In this document: positions 11,480-64,000 of the stretch, in pieces
Numbering within the stretch: the stretch's first letter is position 1
Layout of the letters: each line of letters begins with the position of its first letter
Origin: Zygnema cylindricum
Taxonomy: Eukaryota > Streptophyta > Zygnematophyceae > Zygnematales > Zygnemataceae
Direction of reading: 5' to 3'
DNA length: 64,000 nucleotides
NCBI GenBank assembly: GCA_037447655.1
Contig: JBBHKE010001050.1
Span: 35,001-99,000, forward strand
Made by a program: the position numbers and the translations under genes
The notes under the pieces: generated by a model
The model's database searches: none
Told to the model about the DNA's origin: nothing
The model's input: the letters and a program-made list of their open reading frames with translations, nothing else

Positions 11480-11712
11480 ATCTTCCATCTCTCCCTCCCT
11501 CCCTAATTCCCTCCCTCCCCAACCTTAAAAAAAAAAATAGTATCAGCGAATTGGGTGGAGAGGGAGGGAAGGAGGGAGAGGGCGAATAGCTCTATCTCTC
11601 CCTTTCCCTCCCTCCACTCCCTCCCCCTCTCTCTCCCTTCCTCGCTCCCTCTCTCTCCCTTCCTTCCTCCCTCTCTCCCTCCCTCTATCTCCCTCTCCCT
11701 CCCCCTCTCTAA
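11480..11712. repeat. Polypyrimidine/polypurine tract with inverted arms
   Basis: A CTCCCT-rich block (11487-11520) is followed by a GGGAGG-rich block (about 11555-11582) and a long CTCCCT block (11596-11709). Pyrimidine and purine blocks on the same strand are mutually complementary, so a hairpin is possible. The ORFs at 11503-11868 are translations of this low-complexity DNA. Confidence 0.9.
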
Positions 11713-29676: not shown

Positions 29677-30735
29677 TGTAAAAATTAATGGTCCATTTTA
29701 AGTATTTTCTAGGTCAAAATAGAAATATAGAAAGAAGCCGAAGCAGTCTACCTCTAACTTCTTTCTCCAACTCTCAAACTTGTCGCAGTCACTGAGAAAT
29801 TGGAGAGGGAGCTAGAGCCATGGCTACCTAGGCTATCCACAGGTTTACTTGAAATTTATATTAGTTGAAGGGTTTATTTTATCTAAAAGGTATGTGCCGG
29901 CCACAGGATTTGATCCTTGTACCTACCGGCCGGCAGATGGTAGATAGCCGGTAGCCTTAGCCGTTAAGTCTAGGACTAGTGTTACATAGTATATAGTTTG
30001 ATATTTATTTAACTATGTATACGTATGATAAATCATTTAATTGTAATTCATTACGGGATACATAGATCCGGTAATGTGTAAAGTACGGATTACGGTACGG
30101 ACAGGAAATCAATACCGCGCATTTATTTATTAAGTGAAACGAATACCGCGCATGTATTTATTACGGCTACGATTAAATCCGAATTTAATTGGATGGCCGG
30201 AATTAGCGCCGAGATCGCGGAAGAAGATTTCGGCGGTTTGTGGCCATCGCCACATCGGATGACACGTGGCGAAATTACATTGGATCGTGGAATCTCCGGA
30301 GATTATGGCACCGAATCCGGATATGACATGTGTCGACATTTAGGCCATGTCGTACAATGTCCGTACATAAAGTACACCGGCAGCTGTACTTTTGCGTACG
30401 GAACTCAATTCTGATTGGTTCCGTACATCAGTAGATAGAGTTTGTGAGAGAGATAGGACTTAGAAAAATTAGAAGATAGGACCCTCTCTCCCAGAGAGCT
30501 TCTGTACAAAAGGTCAACTTTGACCCTCCATAACTTACTGCTCAGGGGAGCAAATTCAGAGATTCTTTTTGCTATCGACTGAGGGGAGTCTTGTCTTCAC
30601 AGGGGTGAAGTTGGTCAGCGTTTTTGTCTGCCAGGGTGGCAGTTATTTTTGCTTAAACACAAAGGGGTCAGGATTATCCTAAAGGTTTCTTGGAAGCTGT
30701 CCACTCTGAGGACTTATGGAGGTCTCAGAGTTACA
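29677..30735 (+). repeat. Element B 5' LTR
   Basis: Starts TGTAAAAATTAATGG and ends GAGTTACA, so the termini are TGTAA/TTACA. In U3 it carries an antisense tRNA-like module (29890-29975), then a GTAC cluster (about 30348-30427) and a G-box-like GACACGTGGC (30260-30269). An ATG lies 20 nt before the LTR end (30716), as in elements C and F. Confidence 0.85.
29890..29975 (-). other. Antisense tRNA-like module in B 5' LTR
   Basis: On the minus strand, CTTAACGGCTAAGGC (29968-29954) resembles a tRNA D-arm/A box. GGATCAAATCC (29916-29906) resembles the T-arm/B box. Spacing of about 45 nt is that of a tRNA gene. No acceptor stem can be closed, so this is not a tRNA gene. Confidence 0.65.
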
Positions 30736-32137: not shown

Positions 32138-32729
32138 TGTAGAAACTAATGGTTTTAAAGTATTTTCTAGGTCTGAAAAGAAATAAAGAAGCCGAGGCAG
32201 TCTACCTCTAACTTCTCTCTCCAACTCTCAAACTTGTCGCAGTCACTGAGAAATTGGAGAGGATGCTAGAGCCATGGCTACCTAGGCTATCCTGAGGTTT
32301 ACGGGAAATTTATATTAGTTAGGGTTTATTTATTTAAAAGGTATGTGCCGGCGGCAGGAATTGATCCTTGCACCTACCGGCCGGCAGACAGGAAATAGCC
32401 GGTAGCCTTAGCCGTTAAGTCTAGCCGTAGTATTACGTAGCATATAGTTTGATATTTATTTAAATGATTATACGTGCGATAAATCATTTAACTGAAATAG
32501 ATTACGGGATACATAGATCCAGTAATATATAAAGTACGGATTATGGTACGGACTGAAAATCAATACCGCGCATTTGTTTCGTAAGTGAAACAAATACCGC
32601 GCATGTATTTATTACGGCTACGATTACATCCAAATTTAATCGGACGGCCGCAATTAGCGCCAAGATCACGGAGGAAGATTTCGGCGGTTTGTGGCCATCG
32701 CCACATCGGATGACGCGTGGCGAAATTAC
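32138..32729 (+). repeat. Element B 3' LTR, first part
   Basis: Matches 29677-30273 of the 5' LTR. Element C is inserted after CGAAATTAC; the rest of the LTR continues at 41294. An antisense tRNA-like module lies at 32342-32430 (B-box GGATCAATTCC, A-box CTTAACGGCTAAGGC on the minus strand). Confidence 0.9.
32342..32430 (-). other. Antisense tRNA-like module in B 3' LTR
   Basis: Same module as at 29890-29975. The A-box (32419-32405) is unchanged and one base in the B-box (32367-32357) has changed. Confidence 0.6.
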
Positions 32730-32869
32730 TGTTGAAAAGAGGTAATTAATAGTTCACTTCCCTATTTAGTTTTGTTTTAAAGAAAGAGAGTAAGGATCAA
32801 AGGCGCGCCATGGCTGCCGCCATATTTAGAAAGTGGCAGTTTTTGCAGTTAAGGGTATTTTGGCTAAAA

Positions 32870-32945
32870 TGATGCCTAGGTCTAGGTTTGAACCCGTGAC
32901 CTCTAGATTCTTTGTAGCCTAACGCCTTAACCATTAAGGCGTTAC
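32870..32945 (-). other. Antisense tRNA-like module in C LTR1
   Basis: Minus strand: TGGTTAAGGCG (32933-32923) equals the A-box found in Ser/Leu tRNAs. GGGTTCAAACC (32895-32885) is a near-perfect B-box. The 27 bases between the boxes are similar to a tRNA body. It is about 140-215 nt from the LTR start. Confidence 0.75.
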
Positions 32946-33235
32946 GAAACGATACACGTGACGGGTTTCATAAATATATAAACATTAACGAAACAGCTAA
33001 TTAACAGCAGACTAACCAAAAGGAGCAATTTCTGCATGTACGCGAATCTGAACCGTGTAAAATATGTTTTGATCGGACGGTCGGCATTATAGCCGCCACG
33101 CGAAGTGAGCCTTTTGGCGGCATACGGATATAGCGTCACGGGGTGCCACGTGGCGCCACATTATTTGATACCAAAGAAGATGGGAGGAGGAACCATGGCT
33201 TCCGATATGACAGGTGTCACCTTGTAGACCTTGTC

Positions 33236-33283
33236 GTACAATGGTTGTACAATAAGTACATCGCTCATTGTACTTTCTTGTAC
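33236..33283. promoter_or_regulatory. GTAC cluster in C LTR1
   Basis: Five GTAC words lie in 48 bp (33236, 33247, 33256, 33270, 33280). Comparable clusters lie at the same place in LTR2, LTR3 and the LTRs of B, F and the solo copy. GTAC is the core recognised by plant SBP-domain factors. The regulatory role is inferred. Confidence 0.55.
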
Positions 33284-33599
33284 TTTATAGTGTTTCTATT
33301 GGACTAGGGTTTAATAGTAGGTAGTCGTGAGTAGGCAGACCGAGACTTAGTAATATTTAGGTACCTCTCTCTCTAAGAGAGCTTGTAACTATAAAGGTCA
33401 TCTTTGACCAGCCATAACTTACTGCTCGGGTGAGCAAATTCAGTGATTCTTTTTGCGTTTGACTCAGGGGAGTCTTGTCCTCACAAGGGTGAGAGTGGTT
33501 AGAATATTTGTGTGCCTGGGCGGCGCTTATTCAGCGGGAAAGTAGAAGGGGCAAATATTATCCTAGAGGCTTTACATAGGCTGCTCATTCTGTGGGTCA

Positions 33600-34720
33600 A
33601 TGGAGACCACAAAATTTCAGGTTATGGGCCCACCCTCTAGGGTGCCCATATTTGATGGATCAGAATTTCTTTATTTAGAAATGATGATGGAGGGAGAACG
33701 ATTTGAGAAGCATTTATGGGGCATAGTGTCTGGACAAATTCGATGCCCACCTCTACCTGGGTTTGGAGGGACACATTTTTCTGGCACCTCCGCCTCTACA
33801 GTTGGTAGAACAGTTGCCACCATCACCGAGGATGAAGATGAGGAAGGAGAGGATATTGTCATGGAAGGAGAAAAGGGAGCAGTTACAACTCAAGTGACAC
33901 CATTGCCGAAGGCGATATCGGCAGCAGCACCACCAAAAACAGCGACAAGGGTTCACACCAAAAGATCAGAGTATGAAAAGTGGAACTACAAAGACAAGGT
34001 TGCTAAGCTCTTAATTCTTAAAAGTGTAGCAAAGGGCATTGCCATTCCCCTTATGTATGTCCAATCTTCATCTCAGATTTGGATATCACTAGTTAACAAA
34101 TATAAGAGTGGATCATTGCAGTAACAACAGTTGGCCGAAAATAAGATTGCAGCTTATACTTATAAAGGAGGAATTATGAATAATTATTGCAATGATTTAG
34201 GAGCATTATTTGGAGAGTTAGAGAGTGCAGGTAACTCATGGTTCGAGAGACAAAGAGTGAACACATTAATGATGAAACTACCTGAAGAGTATGAGAATAT
34301 CATTAACCGATTGCAGAACATGAAGATAGCAATTGGAATTGGGATGACACAGTGGGAATGATTTTAGTGAAAGAAATTACCATAGAGCCTAGGAGAGGGA
34401 GTCCAAGTGTTCAAGCATTGTCAGCAAGACCTGATTGGCGGAAGCGTGATGAGGAGAGAGGGAAAGATCCCTATCGAAACTTTGGTGGAAGAGGACAAGG
34501 AGGTGGCAGATTTGATAGACAAGGGAGAAAAACTTCTCGAGGAGGATTATGTCACTTCTGCAAAAAACCGGGACACTTTATGGCAGATTGTGTCAAACTT
34601 GCAGATCTTCGACTGAAAGATGGTCAAGGAACCTCAAGGGATGGAGGAAAGAAAAAGGCTTCCTGACTCAAGTTCTTGATGAGGAAGTGGAAGAAAAAAC
34701 TGAACCTGAAGAGGAGTGAA
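33600..34720 (+). pseudogene. Element C gag1 (truncated, with stops)
   Basis: The frame starts at an ATG 20 nt inside LTR1 (METTKFQ), crosses the primer-binding site as VMGPP, and continues SRVPIFDG and FEKHLWGIVSGQ. The middle part has an acidic Glu-rich patch, then WNYKDKVAKLLILKSVAK and the UBN2-like ISLVNKYKSGSLQ. A TAA interrupts at 34122. A frameshift at about 34330-34360 separates the zinc-knuckle part CHFCKKPGHFMADC. The coding region ends near 34715, where sequence of other elements begins. Gag would form the capsid of the particle. Confidence 0.85.
33620..33634 (+). promoter_or_regulatory. Primer-binding site for half initiator tRNA-Met
   Basis: GGTTATGGGCCCACC follows the LTR end directly. 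It is the exact complement of the anticodon arm GGUGGGCCCAUAACC of plant initiator tRNA-Met as I know it, not of the tRNA 3' end. Priming by a cleaved 5' half-tRNA is established for Drosophila copia and yeast Ty5. Confidence 0.85.
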
Positions 34721-34721
34721 G

Positions 34722-34850
34722 TTGTATTGGGGTTCTAATTATCAAGGGATCATTCATTTGGGTTTATATCAACTAGGAGTCACCACTATCTAGATTAGCT
34801 TCTTTTGGATCTGCGAATTCTGTGGGTAATGGAGCCCATAGAATTTCAAG
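34722..34850 (+). repeat. Fragment of an F/solo-type LTR 3' end
   Basis: GTATTGGGGTTCTAATTATC to CCCATAGAATTTCA is the plus-strand version of the inner end of the solo LTR (44583-44710) and of 52761-52890. It includes the gag start ATGGAGCCCATAGAATTTCA. It lies inside the C array between gag1 and LTR2. Confidence 0.8.
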
Positions 34851-35083
34851 TGCATTTCCACGAGGTGTAGACCTCGGGAAGTTTTTGTAAACCTGACTTT
34901 GTTGCCATCCCGACCTGTATAAACCTCTATCGTTAGCTTTTTTAAGCTTAGGACAAAATTTGTATCCATGACCTCTCTCACTACAATAAAAACATGCATT
35001 GTTGGATTTTCTATTCCCACTATGATTAAACTATTTGAGCTGATTAAACTGATTTCTTTTCTGATTAAACTGTCCTTTCCTCT
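34851..35083 (-). pseudogene. Zinc-knuckle gag fragment of another copia family
   Basis: The minus strand reads KSNNACFYCSERGHGYKFCP, an intact CX2CX4HX4C knuckle, followed by LKKANDRGLYRSGW and more. It differs from the knuckles of C, B and E and is reversed relative to the array. Together with 34722-34850 it forms a foreign patch abutting LTR2. Confidence 0.75.
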
Positions 35084-35971
35084 TGTTGAAAAGAGGTAAT
35101 TAATAGTTCACTTCCCTATTTTAGTTTTGCTTTAAAGAAAGAGAGTGAGGATCAAAGGCGTGCCATAGCTGCAGCCATATTTAGAAAGTGGCAGTTTTTG
35201 AAGTAAAGGGTATTTTACTAAAGTGATGCCTAAGTCTAGATTTGAACCTGTGACCACTGATTCTCTATAGCCTAACGCCTTAACCATTAAGGCGTTACGA
35301 AACGATACACGTGACGGGTTTCATAAATATATAAACATTAACAAAACAGCTAATTAACAGCAGACTAACCAAATGGAGCAATTTCTGCATGTACGCGAAT
35401 CTGAACCGTGTAAAATATGTTTTGATCGGACGGTCGGCATTATAGCCGCCACGCGAAGTGAGCTTTTTGGGGGCATACGGAGATAGCGCCACGCGGTGCC
35501 ACGTGGTGCCACATTATTTGATACTGGAGAAGATGGGAGGAGGAACCATGGCTTCCGATTTGATAGGTGTCACCTTGTCGACCTTGTCGTACAATGGTCG
35601 TACAATAAGTGCATCGCCTATTGTACCTTCTTGTACTATATAGTGTTCCTATTGGACTAGGGTTTAGTAGTAGGTAGTCGCGAGTAGGCAGATCGAGACT
35701 TAGTAATATTTAGGTACCTCTCTCTTTAAGAGAGCTTGTAACTATAAAGGTCATCTTTACCAGCCATAACTTACTGCTCAGGGGAGCAAATTCAGTGATT
35801 CTTTTTGCGTTTGACTCAGGGGAGTCTTGTCCTCACAGGGGTGAGAGTGGTCAGAATATTTGTGTGCCTGGGCGGCGCTTATTCAGCGGGAAAGTAGAAG
35901 GGGCAAATATTATCCTAGAGGCTTTACATAGGCTGCTCATTCTGTGGGTCAATGGAGACCACATAATTTCA
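35084..35971 (+). repeat. Element C LTR2 (middle)
   Basis: 888 bp, TGTTGAAAAG...ATAATTTCA, very similar to LTR1 and LTR3. It is followed by the primer-binding site GGTTATGGGCCCACC (35972-35986). An antisense tRNA-like module lies at 35224-35295. Confidence 0.92.
35224..35295 (-). other. Antisense tRNA-like module in C LTR2
   Basis: Minus strand A-box TGGTTAAGGCG (35286-35276) and B-box AGGTTCAAATC (35249-35239). The linker differs from LTR1 at several bases, but both boxes are preserved. Confidence 0.7.
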
Positions 35972-37155
35972 GGTTATGGGCCCACCCTCTAGGGTGCCCA
36001 TATTTGATGGATCAGACTTTCTTTATTGGGAAATGATGATGGAGGGAGAACTATTTGAGAAGCATCTATGGGGCATAGTGTCTGGACAATTCAATGCCCA
36101 CCTCCACCTGGGTTTGGAGGGACACATTTTTTTGGCAACTCCGCCTCTACAGTTGGTAGAACAGCTTCCACCATCACCGAGGATAAAGATGAGGAAGGAG
36201 AGGAGATTGTCATGGAAGGAGAAAAGGGAGGAGTTGCAACTCAAGTGACAGCATTGCCGAAGGTGATACCAGCAGCAGCACCACCAAAAACGGCGACAAG
36301 GGTTCAGACCGAAAGATTAGAGTGTGAAAAGTGGAACTACAAAGACAAGGTTGCTAAGCTCTTAATTCTTAAAAGTGTAGCAAAGAGCATTGCCATTCCC
36401 TTTATGCATGTCAAATCTTCATCTCAGATTTGGATATCACTAGTTAACAAATATAAGAGTGGATCATTGCAGCAACAACAGCTGGCTGAAAATAAGATTA
36501 CAACTTATACTTATAAAATAGCAAGTATGAATAATTATTGCAATGATTTAGGAGCATTATTTGGAGAGTAAGAGAGTGCTGGTAACTCATGGTCCGAGAG
36601 ACAAAGAGTGAACACATTAATGATGAAACTACATGAAGAGTATGAGAATATCATTAACCGATTGCAAAACATGGGAGATAGCAATAAGAATTGGGATGAT
36701 ATAGTTGGAATGATTTAAGTGAAAGAAAGCACCATTGAGCTTAGGAGAGGGAGTCCAAGTGTTGAAGCATTGGCTGCAGGAGCTTATTGGCGGAAGCGTG
36801 ATGAGGAGAGAGGGAAAGATCCCTATCGAAACTTTGGTGGAAGAGGAGAAGGAGGTGGCAGATTTGATAGACAGGGGAGAGGAACTTCTCGAGAAGGATT
36901 ATATCACTTCTGCAAGAAACCGGGACACTATTTAAGAGATTGTGTCAAACTTGCAGATCTTCGACTGAAAGATGGTCATGGAACCTCAAGGGATGGAGGA
37001 AAGAAAAAGGCTTTCCTGACTCAAGTTCATGATGAGGAAATGGAAGGAAAAACTGAACCTGAAGAGGAGCTTGAGGAGCTTCTCCTTAATCCGAAAAACA
37101 CTGAAAAACATGTTGACATTCCACGGAGACAAAAGTGTGCTTTCGGAGGTAAAAG
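35952..37155 (+). pseudogene. Element C gag2
   Basis: The start METT at 35952 lies in LTR2 and is followed at once by TAA (35964), so the normal start is dead. A one-base loss near 36090 shifts frame, and stops lie at 36569 and 36717. Recognisable in order: VMGPPSRVPIFDG, FEKHLWGIVSGQ, WNYKDKVAKLLILKSVAK, ISLVNKYKSGSLQ, MMKLHEEYENIINRLQNM and a damaged knuckle YHFCKKPGHYLRDC (first Cys replaced by Tyr). Confidence 0.85.
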
Positions 37156-38610
37156 GGATCCACCCACGGATGGGTGGATCATAGACTGAGGGGCTTCAAT
37201 GCATATGTGCAAAGATAAGTGGTGGTTCACTAAATTGAGAAAGATCCCAACAGTTGAGATAGAGTACGGAGATGGTAGAGTAGAAACCACAAATCTTGTT
37301 GGAACTGTTGACTTTATGGTTCTAGTTGATGGAAAGGCCTCAATTGTAACACTCTCAGACGTTCTTTACATTCCACAGCTTAGCAAGAACCTAGTCTCAA
37401 CAGCTTTCCTAGATGAAAAGGAGTTTGAAACACGAACTAGGAAAGGAATCTTTACAGCAAGCTTTGATAATGAGGTTTATTTCATAGATGAGTTGGGCAG
37501 TCAAGGAATGTTCATAATTGTTCTTTGCAATGAAAAGAGTGTTCTCTACTCGTTAGCAAGTGAGATGATGCTTTGGCATAAAAGGTTGGGGCATGTGCAT
37601 CTAGATAGATTAAAAAAAATGAAGAAAAAGGGAATAGTGGAGGGTATTACTTTTGAGGATGATGAGACCTTTGATGATTGTAGTGGATGTGCCCAAGGGA
37701 AGATTCATAGACTTCCATTTCCAAAGGCAACCACATTTAGAGAGAGAAAGTATTAGATCTAGTTCACACTGATGTTTGGGGACCTGCTAGGTATGCTTCA
37801 CATGGGGGGAAGAGATGGATGTTAACTATCACAGATGATTGGTCTAGATACACGAAGGTATACTTTCTCAGACATAAGTCAGAGGTATTAAGATGTTTCA
37901 AAGAGTATAAAGTATGGAGTGAAAAGCTACATGAAACCTCAATAAAAGAGATAAAAAGTGATAATGGGAAATAATACACCTGCAGAGAATTTGAAGAATA
38001 TCTTAAAGAAGGAGGAATTCATCATGAGAAAATTGTTCCCTATAATCCGTAACAAAATGGAGTAGCATAAAGAGTGAATACAACTTTAGGAGATATGTCC
38101 AGAAGTATGTTAATTGATAAGAGGATAGGGTTGCAGTTTTGGGCGAAGTCTATGAACTATGTTAATTTCATCAAAAATAGAGTCATAACTTTAGCAAATA
38201 AGGAGGAAACTCCGTATGAGAGGTGGACGGGAAGAAAGCCTGATTTGTCTAGTTTGAGAGTGTACGGAAGTCAAGTCTACAGTTTGGATTCCGATAAGAC
38301 TAAATGGAAGTTAGAGGGGAGAGGGAAGCCTGGATATCTTGTAGGATATGATGAGAGCATAAAAGGATACCGAGTGTATGACTTGAAAAAGAGAGATATA
38401 ATTTTGGTAAAACACATAGTGGTGATGAATGAAGAGAAGTCCATTGATCCAATCAAATATAATAAGGAAGTCAAAATCAGATTCGAAACGGACCAGTTTT
38501 CTGACTTTGACTTTGAAAATGAAGAGAAGGAAGAGGGAGAAAAAGAAAAATCTGCAAATATACCAAAGGAGAAGGAGGAAAGGACAACATCCGAGGCAAC
38601 GCCACAATAG
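37156..38610 (+). pseudogene. Element C pol: protease and integrase
   Basis: The protease active site has become WIID-stop-GAS (TGA at 37187-37189). Then come the flap region VTLSDVLYIPQLSKNLVST and pre-integrase HKRLGHVHLDRL (about 37575). The zinc-like CSGCAQGKIHRLPF and the integrase core follow, with LDLVHTDVWGP, ITDDWSRY and IKSDNGK; the conserved Glu region holds NP-stop-QNGVA-stop-R. VYGSQVYS and GYLVGYDES are the typical copia integrase C-terminal marks. Stops occur at about 37753, 37972 and 38050-38068. The enzyme would cut the polyprotein and insert cDNA; this copy is inactive. Confidence 0.88.
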
Positions 38611-38784
38611 GAGGTGGAAACCGATGAGGAACTTGATGGGACACCGCAATTGGGAGATAGGGGAGCTGAAAATCTCCCTAAATGAAACCCAAAGATACCT
38701 TCCATACCGGCGTCCGATTTTGAAAGGGGAAGAAGAGGTAGTAAAAGACATCAAGAAAGACAAGTAAATAACCAACTCACAAAG

Positions 38785-40381
38785 ATGTCTCACCCAGATG
38801 AACCTCAGACATACTTAGAGGCCATAAACACTCTTGAAAGTAGCCGGTGGATCACAGCTATAACTGAAGAAATGGCCTCTATCATGGAAGCCAATACAAG
38901 GGAGTTGGTAGATTGTCCACCGGACCGAAAACCGATCGGATGTAAGTGGGTTTTTAAACTTAAATTAAACCCGGATAATATCATTGAGAGGAACAAAGCT
39001 AGGTTAGTTGCAAAAAGATATACTGAGAAAGAGGGGATAGACTACGAAGAAACTTTTGCACCTGTAGTCAGATTTCCTTATGTTAGAATCCTTTTAAGTA
39101 TAGCCGCAGCGGAGGATATGGAAATACACCAGATGGATATTAAAACAACATTTTTGCACGGAGAGATAGAAGAAGAAATTTAATGAGGCAACCCGAAGGA
39201 TTCGTGGAAAGTGGGGAAGAAAATAAAGTTTGCAAACTGATAAAATCACTCTATGGGCTTAAGCAAGCCCCACGACAGTGGAATATAAAGCTCAACAAAT
39301 TTTTGACCGGTTTGGGGTATATCAAAATTAGTTCAGATCACTTCATATATTTATTTGAGGATGAAGATGGAGTGATATTTATTTCTATTTATGTGGATGA
39401 TTTGTTGGTCTTAAGCAAGTCCTTAGATCAAATTAACAAACTAAAACGCGATCTTAGAAGCTGCTTTGACATGAAAGATCTCGGCGAAGCAAAGTACATT
39501 TTGGGAAATCAGATGGAGAGAGATAGAGGGAATAGAATTATAAGACTCACTCAAAAAGAAGCAATCGGTAATATGCTAGAAAAATTTCAAATGGAGAAAG
39601 CAAACGGATGTACTACTCCCATGGATTTGAAGAGAGTGAGTGAGGGGAGTGAAGAGGGAGGAATATTCATCATTAATGATGAGATGGACGAGATAGAAAG
39701 AAAATTTATGGAAAATATCCCTTATCGGAGATTGTAGGCAGTTTAATTTATTTTATGAACTGTACCCGTCCGGATATAGCTGCAGCTTTAGGTGTCCTTA
39801 GTAGAAATCTAAATGAACCAATAAAGAGAGATTGGGAGGCTGCCAAAAGGGTGATGAGGTATCTGGTGGGGACAAGGGAGTTATGGTTGCATTTGGGAGG
39901 GGAGCACACTGATATCACCACTTGGAGTGATGCCAGTTATGGAGATGTGCCTTTAAGGAGGTGTACGACTGGATATGTGTTGCAAATTGGATCCGGTGCA
40001 TGTTGTTGGAGTAGCAAGCAACAAAAAGTAGTTGCTCAGTCCATTATGGAGGTTGAATACATGGCTTCTTGTGCTGCCACCAAAGAATTAATGTGGGTTA
40101 AATCTCTTCTTGAAGAACTTGGGTTCATGAAGTCTGGAACTCAAAATGTTTTTTGTGATAATCAAGCTGCTATCTCGATTGCAGCTAATCCGAAACATCA
40201 CTTCAAAGCTAAGTATATTGATATTAGACTAAGCTTTGTCAGAGAGAAGGTAGAAAATAAAATTATTAAACTGGTTCATAAAACTGATAGAGAAATGATT
40301 GCAGACATGATGACAAAAGCAGTGCCTTCCCCTAAGTTGATTTATTGCAGAAAAAAACTGTGGATTAAAATTGAAAAGTGA
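38785..40381 (+). pseudogene. Element C pol: reverse transcriptase and RNase H
   Basis: Read in order: GCKWVFKLKLNPDNIIERNK, GIDYEETFAPVVRF, HQMDIKTTFLHGEI, a stop at 39181, SLYGLKQAPRQW, catalytic IYVDDLLVLS (about 39390), and LTQKEAIGNMLEKF. A break lies near 39737. The RNase H segment reads MNCTRPDIAAALG, TTWSDASYG, CCWSSKQQKV, MEVEYMAS and FCDNQAAISIAANPKHHFKA. The Y-V-D-D motif and RNase H acidic residues are intact. Two stop or frame breaks inactivate it. Confidence 0.9.
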
Positions 40382-40387
40382 CTAGGA

Positions 40388-40398
40388 ATTAAGGGGAG
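40388..40398 (+). promoter_or_regulatory. Polypurine tract of element C
   Basis: ATTAAGGGGAG lies directly before LTR3. Confidence 0.85.
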
Positions 40399-41288
40399 TG
40401 TTGAAAAGAGGTAATTAATAGTTCACTTCCCTATTTAGTTTTGTTTTAAAGAAAGAGAGTAAGGATCAAAGGCGCGCCATGGCTGCCGCCATATTTAGAA
40501 AGTGGCAGTTTTTGCAGTTAAGGGTATTTTGGCTAAAATGATGCCTAAGTCTAGGTTTGAACCCGTGACCTCTAGATTCTTTGTAGCCTAACGCCTTAAC
40601 CATTAAGGCGTTACGAAACGATACACGTGACGGGTTTCATAAATATATAAACATTAACGAAACAGCTAATTAACAGCAGACTAACCAAAAGGAGCAATTT
40701 CTGCATGTACGCGAATCTGAACCGTGTAAAATATGTTTTGATCGGACGGCCGGCATTATAGCCGCCACGCGAAGTGAGCTTTTTGGTGGCATACGGATAT
40801 AGCGTCACGCGGTGCCACGTGGCGCCACATTATTCGATACCGGAGAAGATGGGAGGAGGAACCATGGCTTCCGATATGACAGGTGTCACCTTGTAGACCT
40901 TGTCGTACAATAGTTGTACAATAAGTACATCGCCCATTGTACCTTCTTGTACTTTATAGTGTTCCTATTGGACTAGGGTTTAAAAGTAGGTAGTCGTGAG
41001 TAGGCACACCGAGACTTAGTAATATTTAGGTACCTCTCTCTCTAAGAGAGCTTGTAACTATAAAGGTCATCTTTGACCAGCCATAACTTACTGCTCGGGT
41101 GAGCAAATTCAGTGATTCTTTTTGCGTTTGACTCAGGGGAGTCTTGTCCTCACAAGGGTAAGAGTGGTCTGAATATTTGTGTGCTTTGGTGGCGCTTATT
41201 CAGCGGGAAAGTAGAAGGGGCAAATATTATCATAGAGGCTTTACATAGGCTGCTCATTCTGTGGGTCGATGGAGACCACAGAATTTCA
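40399..41288 (+). repeat. Element C LTR3 (3')
   Basis: 890 bp, the same length as LTR1, ending AGAATTTCA and followed by the duplicated ATTAC. An antisense tRNA-like module lies at 40540-40614, and a GTAC cluster at about 40905-40952. Confidence 0.92.
40540..40614 (-). other. Antisense tRNA-like module in C LTR3
   Basis: Minus strand A-box TGGTTAAGGCG (40602-40592) and B-box GGGTTCAAACC (40564-40554), as in LTR1. Confidence 0.72.
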
Positions 41289-41293
41289 ATTAC

Positions 41294-41750
41294 GTTGGAT
41301 CGTGGAATCTCCGGAGATTATGGCACCGAATCCGGATATGACATGTGTCGACATTTAGGCCATGTCGTACAATGTTTGTACATAAAGTACACCAGCAGCT
41401 GTACTTTTGCGTACGGAACTGTAACCTGATTGGTTCCGTACATCAGTAGATAGAGTCTGTGATAGAGATAGGACTTAGAAAAATTAGGAGATACGACCCT
41501 CTCTCCCAGAGAGCTTCAGTACAAAAGGTCAACTTTGATCCTCCATAACTTACTGCTCAGGGGAGCAAATTCAGAGATTCTTTTTGCAATCGACTTAGGG
41601 GAGTCTTGCCTTCACAAGGGTGCAGGTGGTCAGAGTTTTTGTTTGCCAAGGTGGTAGTTCTTTTTGCTGAAACACAAAGGGGTCAAGATTATCCTAGAGG
41701 CTTCTTGGAAGCTGTCTACTCTGAGGACTTATGGAGGTCTCAGAGTTTCA
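41294..41750 (+). repeat. Element B 3' LTR, second part
   Basis: GTTGGATCGTGGAATCTCCG to GAGTTTCA continues the 5' LTR homology (30278-30735) after the insertion of C. Element D sequence follows. Confidence 0.88.
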
Positions 41751-44582: not shown

Positions 44583-45628
44583 TTAAATTCTATGGGCTCC
44601 ATTGTCCACATAATTCGCAGATCTAAAAGAAGCTAATCTAGATAGTGCCGACTCCAAGTTGATTTAAACTCAAATGAATGATCCTTTGAAAATTAGAACC
44701 CCAATACACCTTCACCCCTCTGAAGAGAAGACCTTCTGTGTGCTCAGTTCCACCACAGAATGCAAAGCTTGAATATGTGTTTTGGACAATATTCCCCACT
44801 TTGACTTTCCCACTAAATAAGTGCCACCCTGGCACGCAAAGACTCTGGCCAACTACACCCTTGTGTAGCTCAGACTCCCCTGAGTCTGGAGCAAAAAGAA
44901 TCACTGAAATTTCTCACCCGGGCATTAAGTTATGGTTGGTCAAAGATGACCTTTATAGTTACAAGCTCTCTTAGAGAGAGGTACCTAAATATCACTATGT
45001 CTTAGTCTGCCTAATCACGACTACCTATTACTAAACCCTAGTCTTATAGGATCACTATATAGTACATTAGGTACGATAGGCGATATACTTATTGTACGGC
45101 CATTGTACGACATGGTCTACAAGGTGATATTTGCCAAATCGAGAGCCATGGTTCCTCCTCTTATCTTCTCCGGTATCAAATAATGTGGCGCCACGTGGCA
45201 CTGCGTGACGCTATCTTCAAAGGCCGCCGAAAGCTTATTGTGGGTGGCGGCTATAATGGTGGCCGTCCGATTAGTTGAATTTATACGGCTTCAGTTGGCT
45301 TCCATGCATGAATGATTAATGCGCGTTTTCGTTAGTCTGCTGCGAATTAGTCCTTTGTATCAATAGATAAATACGCGTAAAACACATCACGTGTATCGTT
45401 TCGTTAGTGCTTTAATGGATACGGCGTGGGTCTACACCGTATTTTGCAGACCCCGGTTCAAATCGGGCTAGAGGCAGTATTTTGCTTAAACTAGTAAAAT
45501 ACCTTTTAATTCATTATGCCTCCTTCTAAATGACGTAGCAGCCATGGCCTGCCTTTGGTCCTCTCTTTCTCTCTCTTTGCATTTGAACTAAAATGTAGAA
45601 GTGAACTATTAATTACCTTTTTTCAACA
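44583..45628 (-). repeat. Solo LTR of the B/C/F copia clade in element D
   Basis: On the minus strand it starts TGTTGAAAAAAGG (45628) and ends at a damaged TTTAA (44583), with ATGGAGCCCATAGAATTTAA at the gag-start position. It carries a GTAC cluster (45063-45108), TATA-like CTATAAAGG (about 44955) and a tRNA-like module. No clear target duplication is seen: the flanks are GGAAC and CTCTA. The DNA after 45628 looks like a decayed polypurine tract, so it may be a truncated element rather than a clean solo LTR. Confidence 0.8.
45405..45480 (+). other. Antisense tRNA-like module in the solo LTR
   Basis: Antisense to the LTR: TTTAATGGATACGGCG (45411-45426), like the D-arm of Arg tRNAs; then GTGGGTCTAC...GTAGACC-like anticodon-arm sequence; then GGTTCAAATCG (45455-45465) as B-box. 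Its sequence differs from the C and B modules, but the position (about 150-225 nt from the LTR start) is the same. Confidence 0.7.
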
Positions 45629-52760: not shown

Positions 52761-53581
52761 TGAAATTCTATGGGCTCCATTGCCACACAGAATTTGCAGA
52801 TCCAAAGAAGCTAATCTAAATAGTGTCGAATCCAAGTTTATATAAACCCAAATGATTCACCCCTTGAAAATCAGAACCCCATTACTGCTTCAACCCAGTA
52901 AAATAAGACTTTTAGTGTGCTTAGTTCCACCACAGAATGCAAAGTTAGAATATGAGATTAGGACACATTCACCCACGTTGACTTTCCCTTAGAAAGGCAG
53001 CCACTCTGGCAGGCAATAACTCTGACCAACTACACCCCTGTGTAGCTTGAACTCCCCTGAGTCCGCAGAAAAAAAAACACTGAATTTGCTCACCTGAGCA
53101 TTAAGTTATCAATGGTCAAAGATGACCTATTTGTACAGATGCTCTCTGGGAGAGAGGCTGAAATCCAAAAATATTCTAAGTCCTAAACTACCTCTCTAAG
53201 CCTAATACAATTGCACCTATCCAATCAAAATACTGTAAGTTACAAGAAGGTACAAGTACCGTTGTACTTCTTGTACGGCCATAGTACGGCATGGCCGCTC
53301 CGCTGACGCGTGTCAATTCTGAAGCCGAAGTTGCACCCCCCACGATGTCCATTTTCCATTCATGCATTGCCACGTGTCATCCGCCGACATCTGCTCCGCA
53401 AACCGCCAAATGTCCACTCCGGTGCTTCGGCTTCTTTGTAAGTCGTCCGATCCGAAATCCACAATTTAATCACGTCCGTTTAGATTCGACGTCGTTTCGT
53501 TTCGTAATACGTGAAATGGAGTATGTAGATTGGTACCGCATTTAAATACGATTAAAACGCGGTACTTGGAACGTTTCGTTA

Positions 53582-53650
53582 AAGCTTAGTGGATAAGACG
53601 TACGGCTATGCAGCAGCTGCATACCTTGGTTCAAATCCGCCCAATGGCAT
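53582..53650 (+). other. Antisense tRNA-like module 1 in F left LTR
   Basis: GCTTAGTGGATAAGACG (53584-53600) as D-arm/A-box and GGTTCAAATCC (53628-53638), a perfect B-box match. The module is antisense to the LTR. Confidence 0.7.
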
Positions 53651-53737
53651 TATTTTGATAGAAAGCCTTATATTATTATATCTTAGTGTTATATTGTAAC
53701 TAGTTATTATGTTACCGAACCACACAAGGCCAACGCT

Positions 53738-53822
53738 TTAATGAGACCCAAGGGATAAGGTACACGGCTATCAGTACGGCCTATGCAATGAGAGACCTCG
53801 GTTCAAATCCTGCTAGGTCTTA
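53738..53822 (+). other. Antisense tRNA-like module 2 in F left LTR
   Basis: AAGGGATAAGGTACACGG (53750-53767) followed by GGTTCAAATCC (53800-53810) and GCTAGGTC. It is a second module of the same type, 172 bp upstream of the first in antisense numbering. The linker contains an extra TACGGC duplicate. Confidence 0.62.
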
Positions 53823-53990
53823 TATTTTGTTCATACCTCTTTCTGACTATGGCTGCAGCCATGGCTATCTCTATATTCCAGTGAATACGACAAGTATGGA
53901 TGACTTTTTAACACCATCTAGCAAACACATATAATAAATTCAGACCTAGAAAATACCCAATTTTAACACTCCCCTTATTTTTTAGTCTAC

Positions 53991-55040: not shown

Positions 55041-55113
55041 TGTTGTTTTTAGAAATCTTTAGTCCTCTCTATGCCTCAACTGTGAGGGAGAGATAGCTAT
55101 TCATGACTTAAGC
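55041..55113 (+). repeat. Element E first LTR, 5' stub
   Basis: TGTTGTTTTTAGAAATCTTT to GACTTAAGCTAT matches the first about 73 bp of the other E LTRs, then joins RT sequence directly. The junction is at a short A/T microhomology. Confidence 0.85.
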
Positions 55114-56510
55114 TATTATTGAGAGATATAAAGCTAGACTGGGTGCTAACGGATTTAGCCAAAAGGAGGGAATTGACTATGAAGAGACCTTCTCTCTGTG
55201 GTTCGCTTTCCTACTATTAGAGTTTTGCTTTCTCTTGCTGCAATAGAGGATATGGAATTGCATCAGATGGATGTTAAGACGGCTTTCTTGCATGGCGATT
55301 TGGAGGAAGTAATTTATATGAAGCAGCCAGAGATGTATACAGAAAAAAACAAAGAAAATCTGGTCTGTAAACTGTTGAAGTCCATGTATGGTTTGAAACA
55401 GGCTCCGAGGCAATGGAACCTGAAATTAGATGAGTTTTTAACCAATCTTGGCTTTACCAAGATCAGTTCAGATCACTCAATCTATGTAATGCAAGGTGAT
55501 GATGGAGTGATTTATGTGGAAGTTTATGTAGATGATTTGCTACTAATTAGTAAATCCATCAATGAGATTAATAAAATAAAATCAGCTCTGAATTCCCGGT
55601 TTATAATGAAAGACTTGGGTGAGGCTAAGTATATTCTAGGAATACAAGTAGAAAGAGACAGAAAACATAATATTATTTATTTAACTCAAAAGGAAGCAAT
55701 CAAGAAAATGTTAGAAAAGTTTGGCATGTCAGAGGCAAAGGGGAGTGCCACTCCTATGGAATTCAGGCAGAAATTGGAGGGCACGGAAACGGATGGTGGT
55801 GTTTTGGTTGATGGTTTCTTAGATTCGAGGAGGCAGATTCTATGTCCTCCATTTCTTACAGGCAGATTGTCGGAAGCCTCATTTATTTCATGAACTGTAG
55901 TCGTCCCGACATCGTTGCAGCGGTTGGAGCTTTGAGCCGAAGCCTGCAAAATCGAAGGAAGTCAGACTATGAGGCAGCAAAGAGAGTTTTTCGTTATCTT
56001 GCAGGAACTCGAAATCTTAGACTCTCTCTCGGTGGAGGGGAAGTCAAAATTCATGCATAGAGCGATGCGAGCTACGGAGATATGCCCAGCCAACACTCCA
56101 CCACTAGATACATTTTGAAGATCGGAAGTGGAACTTGCTGCTGGAGCAGCAAACTTCAAAAGGTAACAGCTCAATCTACCATCGAGGCCGAGTACATGGC
56201 TGCTAGCTCGACAGTTAAGGAGTTACTTTGGGTAAAATCTCTCCTCCAACATCTTCTCTTTATGCAATCTGGACCACATATAGTGTGGTGTGACAATCAG
56301 GTTGCAATTACTATTGCATCTAATCCCAGTCATCACTTTAAGAGTAAGCACATTGATATCAAGCTACATTTTGTAAGAGAAAAGGTGATGGGAAAATTCC
56401 TTAAGTTGAGTTATTTACCGGATGAGCAAATGGTGGCTGATATGATGACAAAACGCTTACCTGCTCCCAAATTGAAGTACTGTAGAGAAGCATGTGGACT
56501 GAGTGACTAG
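55114..56510 (+). pseudogene. Element E1: reverse transcriptase and RNase H
   Basis: RT from IERYKARLGANGFSQKEG-like sequence through HQMDVKTAFLHGDLEEV, SMYGLKQAPRQW, YVDDLLLIS and LTQKEAIKKMLEKFG. RNase H reads MNCSRPDIVAAVG, CCWSSKLQKV, AQSTIEAEYMAAS and WCDNQVAITIASN. A frameshift lies near 55195, another near 55850, and TAG at about 56058 replaces Trp in WSDAS. Gag, protease and integrase were lost in the deletion that fused the LTR stub to RT. Confidence 0.88.
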
Positions 56511-56521
56511 CAAAGTCTAAA

Positions 56522-56533
56522 GCTTTAGGGGAG
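56522..56533 (+). promoter_or_regulatory. Polypurine tract of element E1
   Basis: GCTTTAGGGGAG directly before the LTR at 56534. The same sequence precedes 61462. Confidence 0.85.
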
Positions 56534-57375
56534 TGTTGTTTTTAGAAAACTTTAGTCCTCTCTATGCCTTAGCTGTGAGGGAGAGAGAGCTATTGAGGAC
56601 TTAAGCTATTTTTGGTTGAGTTCGGTTCAGTTGTTACCAAAATTAGTGTGACAGTGAAGTTGGGAGTTCACGGTTCATTCACACTTGGGACACGCGTCGT
56701 CACTTGAGAGAAATGCGTGAGTATGTCCTCCGTGGACGTACGGAAATTCGGCAGGACCACCGGACTTCGTGAAGTCAATTCTACGGTGCCAAATCCTCTA
56801 GTCGGACGGCTGACAGCCGCGCCAACAAATACTGACGAGGCGTGACTAGATCACTATCACTTTACGTTGTTTGAACTTCGGTGTAAATATTTGGTAGAAT
56901 AGAATTTTGTTTGTAGTGAATTAGTTGTTTAGTGTTGAGAATGTGGTTTATGACATACCTTCAGTACACAGGTATACTCATACTATTTGTTGTGTTAGAA
57001 TGTTATATGTACGGCTGGAATGCCTCCGTACTGCTTAGTGTAGTTTTGGTGAATAGAAGTAGGACTTAGTGAATTTGATTCATTAGGAACAAATGATATG
57101 AAAATTGTACACTTAGTTTTATGTAATTTCATTTCTTTATATCTCAAGGTTTTTTTAGCGAAATTCATTGAAATTTTTTGTGTTTGTTCCTTTTTATGTT
57201 ATCTACAATGTGGTGAATCATCATGACCTTTGGATTTTTTTTCTGAAATTTATAGTCTGTCAAAGTTGCTGTTCAGCCATTGGTATTTGTGGAAGATTCC
57301 TCTTTTGTTTTGTTCTACGATGACTACTGCTGCATCTTCTTCATCATCAGTGCCAGCAGTTGTCTCAAAACAAGA
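56534..57375 (+). repeat. Element E middle LTR
   Basis: 842 bp, TGTTGTTTTTAG...ACAAGA, against 843 bp for the right LTR, which ends CAACA. The last 56 nt are in the gag frame from ATG at 57320 (MTTAASSSSSVPAVVSKQ). The following GGTCACCGGCCCGCC stands where C has its primer-binding site, with 11 of 15 bases shared. Confidence 0.85.
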
Positions 57376-58384
57376 GGTCACCGGCCCGCCTTCACGAATT
57401 CCGGTCTTTGATAGACGGGAATATCTGTATTGGGCAGATTTGGTTAAGTCTTACTTTAAGCAAGTGAAACTTATTGATGTGTTAAATAGATCACTGGCAG
57501 AATCTGATGCCAGCTTTGATCAGAAAAATGACCAGGCTTTGCATTTAGTAAAGCTTATGATATCAAAAGAATTGCATATGACACATATTAATGTTACAAA
57601 GGCATCACAATTGTGGGATGCTTTGAAATCTTCTTATGTTAAAGCTAGTGACCAGCATGAGATTATAACTGCTGGTCAGATCTATGAGTATAAGTACACA
57701 GGTGGTAGCATGGTGGAATACACTAATCAGTTTTGAATGTTACTGTCAGAAAATGCATGTTCTAGGGGAACTTTCTCCCCTTATCATCAGGCCATGATTC
57801 TCCTAAAGAGGCTTCTTAATGAATATAAAGGAGCCTCAGATGAAATGAAAAAATTGTCTAAACCTCTTTGGAATTTGCAAAGAGCGATAGAGTTTATCTT
57901 GGCAGAAGAGGCTACTCAAATAGTTTTAGGATTTGGAAAACCAACTGTAGCATTTACGGCTCAGTTTCAGAGGGAAAGTAGATATCAAGGGAATCAGTTT
58001 AATCCTCAGTTTGAGAAATGTGTGTATTTCTATACTGATGGTCACTCCTTCAGAGCTTGTTCTTTGTATATAAAAGCTCTTGAAACAGTTACCTTTCGGA
58101 AAGGATGGAGACAACGTGGACCTCCCATTTCCCAAAAACCTCGGAATAAAACTGTTGCATTTTCAGCGGAGGATACGGAATTCAAGAAGAAAACGACCGA
58201 GGAAACAACACCTGATGTGCTCAGTTTTCCAAAAACTGATGACAAAGAGTTCTTCGCTCTTGCCAAACTCGACATGATGGAAGGAGAAAAGGACCTCGGA
58301 TGGATAATGGATTCCGGCAGCTCTTCACACATGTGCTGGAACAAGTCTTGGTTTAAGGAGATGTCTTCTATTCCTTTACGTTAG
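57320..58384 (+). pseudogene. Element E2 gag and protease
   Basis: Starts in the LTR. Gag: GPPSRIPVFDRREYLYW, KLMISKELHMTHINVTKASQ, LWDALKSSYVKASDQHE, a stop at 57734-57736, then MILLKRLLNEYKGASDE. The knuckle CVYFYTDGHSFRAC has its second Cys replaced by Tyr. The protease is WIMDSGSSSHMC with the active D-S-G intact. A TAG at 58382 ends the frame. Only two stops separate this from an open gag-protease. Confidence 0.88.
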
Positions 58385-59860
58385 ATCTTTTATGCTTGTG
58401 GCTATGCCGTTGAATCAAATGCCAAAGGAAACATAGATCTGGATTGTGTGATAGATGGAAAGGTTGTTAAGAGAACTTTGTATGATGTCTTGTATGTTCA
58501 AAAGTTCAAGAAAAATATGTTTTCTACGTCTGTAGCTCAAAGCAAAGGCTTTGAGGTTCTCCAGAAAAATGGCAAGAAAATAGTGAGCAAGAATGGAAGA
58601 GTAGCTCTAGTAGGAACTAGAGGCCCAAACTTTTTGTACGGCATGGACCTGGCTAATAAAATTGATTTTGCGTATTCCAGTGTCCTATGTGATAATGTTT
58701 TGTGGCATAAAAGACTTGGTCATGTGCATCATGAGAGACTTACTAAGATGATAAAACATGACATGATAGAGGAAGTCAAGCTTGGTCAACAAGAGTCTCA
58801 TGTGTGTGATGGTTGTGCTCTCGGAAAGCTTCACAAGCTTCCCATATCACAAGTTTCTGATCACCGAGCCACAAATGTTCTTGGTATTATTCATTCTTAT
58901 GTTTTCAGCCTTTCTAAAGTTCCCTCTCTAGGTGGCACCGCTTCTTTGTCACCTTTACTGACGATTACTCTCGGTATAGTCGCATATACTTCATGAAGGA
59001 GAAGAGAGAAGTCTTCACTCACTTTAAGCACTACAAAATCTGGGCGGAGAAACTTCACGGTTAATCTATTCTTGCTCTCCGGATGGATAATGGTGGAGAG
59101 TATGTATCTCATGCCTTTGCTGATTTTTTGAAAGAAAATGCCATCTCTCGTGAATTTACTGCTCCGTACACATCGGAACAAAATGGTGTTGCCGAGAGAC
59201 TTAATCGGACTTTGACTGAATGTGCTCGATCTATGATGGCCGATAAAGGTGTGGATCCAAAGTTTTTGGGGGAAGCTTTTCATTGTGCTTCCTACATCAG
59301 AAATAGAGTGGAAACCCGGGCTGTTAGTGGTAAGACACCTTATGAAGTTTGGACAGGCAAAAAGCCAAATGTTAGTCATTTTAGAGTTTTGGTAGCAAAT
59401 GTTTTATCTTGGATAATCTTCCTAATTGGAAGCTTAGTCCAAAATCTGTACCTGGTGTTTTTTCAGGCTATGATGATGAATCTACAAGTTATAGAGTGTA
59501 TAATCCTCAGAGAGGATGCCTTCAAACAGCCAGGAATATTTAGATTAAAGAAGAAATTCAATCTGTTGACATTTTTAGCATGGATGCAGCTGAAAAAAAT
59601 GAGAAAATACAAGAGTATATCATTCTTGAGCAAGTACCTTTTACTCAATCCTCTTCTACTTCTTCTACCTCTCTTCGAAATGCCTCTGGGCCGTCTAATA
59701 CACCTTCTGGAGCTGCTCCTTCTATCGTTGCTCCTCCCAATACACGCCTTGTGCGGCAATCTAGGGAACCAACAGTTCCCGCGTCAGATTTTCCGGGGGG
59801 AAGAAGACAAAGCAGCCGCCTTCGAGGCGACCAAGTTGAAATGCTTTTTATGCAAGCATA
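58385..59860 (+). pseudogene. Element E2 integrase region
   Basis: Seen in order: DVLYVQKFKKNMFSTSVAQS, pre-integrase HKRLGHVHHERL, CDGCALGKLHKLPIS, integrase core DDYSRYSRIYFMKEKREVF (other frame), RMDNGGEYVS, SEQNGVAERLNRTLTECARS and GKTPYEVWTGKKPNVSHFR. The D, D and E catalytic residues are recognisable, but frameshifts lie near 58880 and 59390 and a stop at about 59061. The tail (59580-59861) is Ser/Pro-rich linker. Confidence 0.88.
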
Positions 59861-61438: not shown

Positions 61439-61461
61439 CAAAGTCTAAAGCTTTAGGGGAG

Positions 61462-62304: not shown

Positions 62305-62309
62305 GAATT

Positions 62310-63036: not shown

Positions 63037-64000
63037 GAAAATTTGTGTGCTCTATTGCCCACAGAAATCGCAGATCCAAAAGAAGCTTATCTAGATAGTG
63101 CCGACTCCAAGTTGATATAAAACCAAATGACTGACCCCTTGACAATCACAAACCCATTATAGCTTCACCCTTGTGAAATAAGACTTTCTATTTGCTCAGT
63201 TCCACCACAGAATGCAAAGTTAGAATATGAGTTTTGGACTCATTCACCCACTTTGACTTTCCCTTAGAAATTCAACCACCCTGGCAGGCAAAAACTCTAA
63301 CCGACTACATCCTTGTGTAGCTTAGACCACCTTGAGTCCGCAGCAAAAAGAATCACTGAAAATGGTCAAGTAAATTGATCGTTATGGCTGGCCAAAGTTT
63401 GCCATTTATACAAGATCCTACTTGGGAGAGGCAACTTCCTACCACAAATTTTCTAAGTCCTGTTCCCCCTCTTAAACTCTATCTACTAAAATACGGCACC
63501 AATCAAATTACTGTGTCATATAGAAAAGTACAGGTGTCGATGTACTTTTTGTACGGCCATTGTACAACATGGCCAAAATGCGACACGTGTCAAATCAGGA
63601 TTTGTTCCTGTAATCTCCAGAGTTCCTGTAATCGCATGTTATCACACCACGTGTCATCTGACGTGGCAAAGACTGTAAAACGCCAAAAGTACCTCTTCCG
63701 TGATAGCGGCCCCTATTGCGGCCGTCTGATCTAAACCGGCTATAATCTTAGCCGCTGAAATTCGACGCGCGGTATTTATTTTGCTATCCAAATAAATGCT
63801 CAGCATCATTTCCGTCCCCATACCCTACTCCATACTAAATCAAACTGTATCTATGCACTTAGTATCTATTCTCCGTTAAACGAATTAATCTACGTCTAAC
63901 AAATTACATATTTATCAAACCCTATATATTGTAAAATGAGTCCTAGACTTAACAGTTAGAGCTAACAGCTACAGTAACTTGACAGACGGCGGGTACCAAG
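63037..64000 (-). repeat. Element F right (5') LTR, runs off the window
   Basis: The inner end is TGAAAATTTG on the plus strand. R/U5 resembles the left F LTR, and a GTAC cluster lies at 63529-63562. The last 20 bases read ATAGAGCACACAAATTTTCA, so the gag ATG has become ATA. U3 beyond about 63700 does not align with the left LTR. Confidence 0.85.
63940..64000 (+). other. Antisense tRNA-like module in F right LTR, cut by window end
   Basis: CCTAGACTTAACAGTTAGAG (from 63942) matches the module of element B (CCTAGACTTAACGGCTAAGG) rather than those of the left F LTR. The B-box would lie just past 64000. Confidence 0.55.

Follow-up and report, generated by a model that had tools for sequence, protein, structure and literature searches.

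A candidate antisense, self-terminating RNA polymerase III unit in the long terminal repeats of a Copia clade of Zygnema cylindricum

Small-RNA promoters in long terminal repeats (LTRs) have so far been described mainly as making the RNA of tiny non-coding elements, namely Cassandra, Helenus, and Ajax. In these short elements, the RNA of the element is attributed to the LTR promoter, by report in Cassandra and by supposition in the others; their autonomous counterparts are argued to need RNA polymerase II (Pol II) and to be unlikely to share a long LTR stretch with such terminal-repeat retrotransposons in miniature (TRIMs) (Kojima 2024, PMC10886601). Here we analyze 64,000 nt of the streptophyte alga Zygnema cylindricum, hereafter the window (positions 35,001 to 99,000 of contig JBBHKE010001050.1; C781:35001-99000 of assembly G000, 352.8 Mb in 2689 contigs), together with a clade of Copia retrotransposons of the same genome. 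The LTRs of this clade quite probably bear a selected, self-terminating antisense unit of the tRNA type (type 2) of RNA polymerase III (Pol III) promoters, whose sequence we call the module.

Helenus, a group of tRNA-like TRIMs, has A and B boxes conserved inside its LTRs and mostly no predicted functional tRNA, and many of its fungal families use the anticodon loop of the initiator tRNA-Met (iMet) as primer and depend on Copia, as described by Kojima (2024, PMC10886601). Helenus elements are, however, 311–1263 bp long and non-coding. In our clade the LTRs alone measure 890–1310 bp and the window relatives C and B carry Copia gag/pol domains, which sets them outside the short non-coding class (<1000 bp) of the TRIM screen for Helenus and TRIMp3. 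The Helenus promoter is thought to make the template RNA in sense, whereas the present unit is antisense to the order LTR, primer-binding site (PBS) and has a T run of its own; by term search, the word "antisense" is absent from the main text of that paper. Cassandra, a TRIM bearing 5S rRNA, similarly conserves a Pol III promoter and terminator in its LTRs, but its promoter is of the 5S type, the element is non-autonomous, and transcription in sense makes the element RNA (PMC10886601; PMC12786077). The module boxes are tRNA-type, unlike those of Cassandra, and the window has no Rfam match to 5S rRNA at E ≤ 10.

Short interspersed nuclear elements (SINEs) derived from tRNAs share the internal A/B-box promoter and the degenerate tRNA body, but the modules keep to one place and strand of clade LTRs (32 of 38 strong terminator-bearing matches) and, by eye, end at the T run and not in a SINE body. 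tRNA-gene insulators and extra-TFIIIC sites have A and B boxes, or just B boxes, close to the edge of a chromatin region; these are host loci, and here the likeness is one of sequence alone. The antisense Pol III-occupied mammalian-wide interspersed repeat (MIR) of Polr3e is also described as lying by a Pol II promoter and affecting Pol II transcription, but it is a single mammalian copy in a host intron, outside any LTR (PMC5358760). In the open-licence PMC literature, judged mainly by titles and abstract openings, we found no description of a terminated Pol III unit lying antisense in the LTRs of coding elements. Since not a few Repbase LTRs are noted to contain a tRNA part (PMC10886601), single unanalyzed cases may already be recorded.

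Antisense modules in the window and across the genome

LTRs of the window were delimited by self-comparison. Element C (32730-41288) is inserted into the 3' LTR of element B, with the target duplication ATTAC at 32725-32729 and 41289-41293. It carries three LTRs in the order LTR, gag piece, LTR, internal part, LTR, and its Copia domains (PF14223, PF22936, PF13976, PF25597, and PF07727) lie in separate open reading frames, with broken frames. Given its gag, GAG-pre-integrase, and RVT_2 domains, its 5-bp target duplication, and its LTR-PBS order, C is a member of the Copia superfamily; B, compared for part of these characters, also carries gag/pol domains in broken frames. Among the 120 reverse-transcriptase relatives listed, identity is at most 55%, and the records bearing an organism name come from land plants, apart from one bacterial entry; a search for the RuBisCO large subunit gave no match. 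C is a rearranged or recombined copy, with an F-like piece at about 34710-34851 within its first internal part.

A first-pass annotation of this DNA had proposed that every LTR of one copia clade carries, at a fixed place, an antisense module with an A box and a B box. The modules and their place were confirmed in the window and seen far beyond it. As for "every LTR", a module is present in eight of the nine delimited clade LTRs; the ninth, G, has no recognizable one. We scored boxes with a matrix built from 12 sequences picked among 20 host tRNAs, some possibly organellar; being made from host tRNA boxes, it is independent of the modules. In the features below, scores are in bits and T4 is a run of at least four T.

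32730..33619, plus strand: 5' LTR of C, host of a module, delimited by self-comparison and target duplication
32866..32941, minus strand: type II module of the C 5' LTR (20.8 bits; A-like box from 32941 down, B box 32884-32894, T4 32866-32869, 14 nt past the B box)
33620..33634, plus strand: PBS of C, GGTTATGGGCCCACC, complement of the host initiator tRNA-Met anticodon arm
35220..35294, minus strand: type II module of the second C LTR, 35084-35971 (21.2 bits; B box 35238-35248; T run of three T, no T4)
40535..40610, minus strand: type II module of the C 3' LTR, 40399-41288 (20.8 bits; B box 40553-40563; T4 at 14 nt)
29885..29972, minus strand: type I module of the B 5' LTR, about 29677-30735 (21.5 bits; B box 29906-29916; T4 at 17 nt)
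32336..32423, minus strand: type I module of the B 3' LTR, 32138-32729 plus 41289-41750, split by C (20.7 bits; B box 32357-32367; T4 at 17 nt)
45408..45483, plus strand: type II module of the solo LTR, a minus-strand LTR running down from about 45628 (20.1 bits; B box 45455-45465; T4 at 14 nt)
53582..53656, plus strand: module 1, type II, of the F LTR, minus strand, about 52761-53968 (28.7 bits; B box 53628-53638; T4 at 14 nt)
53744..53828, plus strand: module 2 of the F LTR, at the type I place (26.3 bits; B box 53800-53810; T4 at 14 nt)
63944..64000, plus strand: initial portion of a type I module whose LTR is cut off at the right edge of the window; the remainder (degenerate B box, T4) lies beyond the edge and was read in L069

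Over both strands of the 64 kb, the matrix yields 49 matches of at least 13 bits. Seven reach at least 20 bits with a T4 8–22 nt past the B box, and all seven are antisense modules in clade LTRs. Against this, 20 bits or more without T4 are reached by three non-modules, of which one sits inside a family E LTR, and six weaker T4-bearing matches (13.0–15.5 bits) are non-modules as well. Families E and A, with two copies each, have no T4-bearing matrix match within their LTRs. Taken alone, the B-box word shows no excess: with up to 2 mismatches allowed, the window has 31 matches where 24.2 ± 4.7 are expected, and 9 of 100 shuffles reach 31. Being no better than chance, the word was dropped as evidence.

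The PBS GGTTATGGGCCCACC of the clade has 5,974 copies in the genome, whereas its reversed pattern has 6. Its complement lies in the anticodon arm of a host initiator-type tRNA-Met; the extended tRNA word has 9 genome matches, and the two that we fetched were both called tRNA-Met. Anticodon-loop priming is recorded for Drosophila Copia and Ty5 (PMC10886601). We sampled 40 loci at PBS sites among the first 100 listed, on low-numbered contigs, and added the window. With up to one mismatch this set holds 57 PBSs, 53 of them with at least 900 bp upstream. Two of the 53 have no clade LTR upstream (L017, L019_2725), and in six the LTR ends at or before the module place (L011, L012_6292, L030, L034_1446, L043_5928, and the window-edge LTR, in which the module appears, with a degenerate B box, once the continuation is read). 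All 45 sampled LTRs that extend through the place carry a module. The matrix finds 42 of these at 14 bits or more; those of L020, L032, and L046, recognized by homology, reach 10–12 bits and are supported by alignment. We looked for family members without the boxes and, among LTRs with a PBS, met them only where the LTR is truncated at the place or short of it; the old LTR G is a further case. PBS-bearing LTRs are likely the better preserved ones.

The strand preference is marked. The best antisense pair of boxes outscores the best sense pair at 47 of the 53 sites. At 14 bits or more, there are 49 antisense matches, 42 with a T4 within 30 nt, against 17 sense matches, six with T4, at least one of the sense matches being the genuine module of an inverted neighbor. 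Markov resamples (212 sequences) gave 50 such matches, seven with T4.

The earlier description had missed the Pol III terminator. We compiled a list of 46 modules from 43 LTRs with a PBS, three of them having a second entry, one being the B 3' LTR upstream of C. Matches off the module place were removed by eye (L012_6292 at 649, L034_5880 at 1293, L043_5928 at 87, and L048_3205 at 76), near-duplicate LTRs were dropped (L026_3669, L042_545), and L020, L032, and L046 were added. In 42 of the 46 modules a run of at least four T begins 12–19 nt past the B box, and in 37 of these the distance is 14, 15, or 17 nt. As background, offsets drawn at random on that strand have a T4 starting within a comparable window (10–20 nt) in 5.5% of cases. 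The T run of tRNA genes lies about as far past their B box. Genome-wide, the perfect B box GGTTCAAATCC followed by TTTT at 14–17 nt occurs 828 times and the reversed pattern 4 times, a few sites being counted twice where the run exceeds four. A pattern of the B subfamily running from the B box through TTTT occurs 1,683 times against 2 for its control. Among 100 matches listed for this pattern we counted, by eye, about 20 same-strand pairs about 5.4 kb apart, as expected for the two LTRs of full-length elements.

A scan of 318 kb (the 40 loci and the window, 24.6% clade LTR by BLAST) measured specificity, with T4 taken 8–22 nt past the B box. At 20 bits or more with T4, there were 32 antisense matches in clade LTRs, one sense match, and five outside; without T4, the counts were 4, 0, and 15. 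Between 16 and 20 bits, 18 antisense and two outside matches had T4; 3 antisense, 3 sense, and 39 outside matches lacked it. By eye, none of the five strong outside matches contains the module body. Four of them are one tRNA-like repeat (L017:2679, 4207, and 4493 on the plus strand, L018:1915 on the minus strand), which reads TGGCACAGTGGTAGTGCG ... GGTTCGAACCC ... TTTT at 33.6 bits and is perhaps a SINE or a tRNA-like satellite.

Constraint, position, and module types

The first-pass annotation had asked whether the boxes diverge like neutral LTR sequence. The B box and the terminator do not; within the A box, four positions stand out. Identities were taken from pairs whose BLAST match spans the module and includes flanks of at least 80 and 60 nt; a first test by global alignment was discarded, as it assigned about 73% identity even to pairs with little relationship. 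In the order flank, A region, body, B box, T run, mean identities were 0.67/0.68/0.64/0.84/0.92 in 117 pairs, 0.74/0.76/0.71/0.90/0.96 in 67 pairs, and 0.85/0.88/0.75/0.92/0.98 in 54 pairs. In the 18 pairs with flank identity of at least 0.90 (0.94/0.96/0.90/0.93/0.96), the B box is no better than the flank. Column by column, at flank identities of 0.55–0.85 (418 ordered pairs, every pair taken both ways; flank 0.72, B box 0.87), the conserved A-box columns are T8 (0.95), R9 (0.86), G10 (0.83), and G18 (0.86). The B-box columns T, C, A, and A stand at 0.97, 0.98, 0.97, and 1.00, the next at 0.53, and the following T and C at 0.99 and 0.93. Because T-run labels were assigned on the query, we used T4 runs of the flanks as control: module runs are intact in 70% of cases (n = 398) and flank runs in 22% (n = 649). 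By eye, other conserved U3 words in sense, around CCATGGC and ACTTGTYGYAGTCACTG, lie between the module and the LTR start in unlike families (e.g., window 32800-32830 and 29760-29830).

The place is also kept. In 31 type I/III modules, the B-box end lies at a median of 216 nt from the LTR start (standard deviation 16, range 158–238), whereas the distance to the LTR end has a standard deviation of 109, in LTRs of 970–1310 bp. LTR starts were chosen partly by eye; L044 and L048_605 were omitted, having no clear start, and L035, whose start is doubtful, was kept in the flank survey described below and excluded from these statistics. Type II modules lie 154–190 nt from the LTR start in eight LTRs (888–1069 bp) and at 330–398 nt in three LTRs that also have something at the type I place. 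One of these traces, a type I remnant in L033, was recognized by eye and added ahead of the tree.

For 45 LTRs, the final 480 bases, a part free of modules, were used to build a midpoint-rooted tree. The eight LTRs with type II only cluster together (98/96) and the dual LTR L039 is their sister (99/100), while the other two dual LTRs stand beside the F-like clade with type I only, at a weakly supported fork (86/71). Module-type labels need five changes on this tree against a mean of 13.4 when shuffled. The dual-module LTRs suggest a hand-over between module types. In the simplest story, type I would have come first, a second unit been gained, and the first then lost, so that the second now stands near the usual place; this order is unproved.

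Several observations count against a selected Pol III unit or narrow its scope. Four of the 46 modules have no T4. Module scores, mostly 15–29 bits, lie below those of most of the 20 host tRNAs (28–42 bits). The 19-nt A region as a whole is hardly above the flanks, and some columns beyond the boxes are equally conserved, for example those 6 and 8 nt ahead of the B box (0.96, 0.93) and 9–10 nt past it (0.95). Within a pair, 31% of flank 11-mers on average equal or exceed the B box in conservation, so other constrained sites exist in this stretch of the LTR. The matrix scan recognizes no module in clade LTR G (about 3625-4447, minus strand), an old copy with no clear PBS, which was absent from the first-pass list of LTRs. 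Finally, the sample covers a single genome and copies whose PBS is near-perfect, taken by PBS and not by coding content, and the coding domains are those of window elements C and B.

Three features lie apart from the modules. At window 11480-11675, a purine/pyrimidine-rich tract has dozens of sub-threshold Rfam miRNA-family matches, most likely owing to its composition. In the family E element (55041-62305), the LTR start recurs as a third, short copy at 55041-55121, which resembles the LTRs of the element at 91% and lies beside a minus-strand coding piece. The polypurine tract (PPT) word AAGGGGAG precedes five of 43 PBS-followed LTRs; tandem LTR-internal-LTR-internal arrays therefore seem common.

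Possible roles of the unit and competing explanations

The proposal of an antisense Pol III unit in U3 is well borne out at the sequence level, by the A box, the B box, the T4, the tRNA-gene-like spacing, and the fixed place in 45 of 45 LTRs; the tRNA-mimic insulator that the first-pass annotation offered as an alternative is a conjecture. The B box begins about 46–57 nt after the A-box start and the T4 stands 12–19 nt past the B box. At about 155–220 nt from the LTR start, the unit is presumably in U3. TFIIIC and Pol III would be expected to use it, and the predicted RNA, very roughly 85–105 nt long, would head away from the element body and end inside the LTR. Lying near the outer LTR end, directed outward, and stopping before the LTR edge, the unit cannot make the genomic RNA. 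Selection would maintain the promoter signals, the terminator signals, and the place, and not the body.

The modules are not tRNAs; tRNA models recognize no cloverleaf in them. ARAGORN at its normal threshold called no module as a tRNA; at a lowered threshold it was too loose, with just three modules among 39 matches. The Rfam tRNA model gave one sub-threshold match in B (15.3 bits, cut-off 29) and none at E ≤ 10 in F, the solo LTR, or C. The tRNA identities first assigned, Ser/Leu for C and Arg for the solo LTR, are not supported: among 12 type II modules compared with 20 host tRNAs, the best match was Arg in five, Gln in five, and Asn in two, which does not identify a parent tRNA. A role of the module RNA as primer was rejected, the iMet-half motif being found in none of the 46 modules.

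RNA structure was examined on two alignments. A1 comprises 29 of the 32 type I-like modules of the list, with L016, L039 distal, and F distal excluded, plus the B 5' LTR; A2 comprises the 11 type II modules plus the C 3' LTR and the solo LTR. In type I, a hairpin TTGACGGAC/GTCCGTCAA around the T-arm has 79% of cells paired, against 24–48% in slid controls. Its 27 double-change cells exceed all 500 shuffles, two pairs holding 22 of the 27. The number of pairs with a double change and the number of pair types, which are less sensitive to relatedness, do not exceed the shuffles (159 and 334 of 500), and the structure was derived from one row. Automatic consensus folding was weak for type I (5 pairs) and gave a D-arm-like stem for type II (6 pairs). 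Of 14 modules folded singly, five had a z below −2. No common cloverleaf was found in either consensus or in the single folds. The feature that is kept is promoter plus terminator, not one RNA shape.

Elsewhere, tRNA genes and extra-TFIIIC sites keep promoters accessible and shield them from neighboring chromatin. Given a working unit, we tentatively favor, by analogy, a role for its occupancy: TFIIIC and Pol III seated by the outer LTR end may keep the Pol II promoter accessible and shield it from flanking chromatin, while the terminator would stop Pol III ahead of host DNA. Such a role fits better than one of a single RNA sequence, because the signals are conserved and the body drifts.

The drift of the body is no objection to another role of a working unit, in which its short RNA tunes copy number, reverse transcription, or silencing in the manner of Ty1, since an antisense RNA made here will be complementary to the U3 it comes from, regardless of sequence. 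The conserved terminator suggests that an RNA is made, the type I pairing pattern with its double changes (27 cells, 0 of 500 shuffles) points the same way, and the Ty1 antisense RNA of yeast is described as a precedent (PMC12786077). This explanation stands, but we hold it rather unlikely: there is no common fold, only five of 14 modules clearly beat shuffles, two pairs dominate the double changes, and the measures less sensitive to relatedness stay within the shuffles.

That the conserved bases serve something other than Pol III, as sites of another DNA-binding factor or as a hairpin in the sense genomic RNA with the tRNA likeness secondary, appears improbable. The further conserved U3 columns outside the boxes and a type I stem that could pair in either strand would suit it. 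Against it stand three signals that belong to one machinery and lie on one strand at the spacing of that machinery; a matrix of real tRNAs independently detects 42 of the 45 modules, and the unlike module types have just those signals in common.

Slightly less probable still is a relic, a tRNA-derived SINE or tRNA fragment that entered an ancestral LTR and was carried along without function. Kojima proposes SINE insertion as an origin of tRNA-like LTRs (PMC10886601), and a separate tRNA-like repeat exists in this genome (L017, L018). A functionless passenger should not, however, keep its promoter bases and T runs above the flanks while the intervening body is not kept, nor should unlike module types occupy the same place, and no sampled LTR extending through the place is without a module. 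A tRNA origin of the module is itself compatible with a selected Pol III unit. The least probable explanation is a landing pad, with the unit drawing further insertions of elements of its own kind in the way that Pol III genes draw yeast Ty1 and Ty3: C did insert into the B 3' LTR about 300 bp upstream of the B unit, and 10 of 43 examined LTRs have another clade LTR as 5' flank, but five of these 43 LTRs come after a PPT and so do not mark fresh insertions, the remaining ratio of 10 in 38 is close to the clade-LTR share of the sample (24.6%), insertion points are scattered along the LTR (in a small sample around elements, with starts partly chosen by eye), and the flank survey thus shows no enrichment.

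If the selected Pol III unit is real, Pol III recruitment, or a short antisense product, can belong to the LTR regulatory equipment of an abundant Copia clade. This would bear on the resistance of elements to silencing, on the spread of tRNA-like boundary elements, and on the abundance of tRNA-like matches in repeat-rich genomes; the thousands of natural copies in one genome make the unit directly testable. Speculatively, the clade may rely on two polymerases: Pol II would make its genomic RNA, and a self-terminating Pol III unit, facing backward near the outer edge of U3 in every LTR, would protect or tune the Pol II promoter and be needed enough that a second tRNA-like unit, once arisen, can replace the first (type I, I and II, II only).

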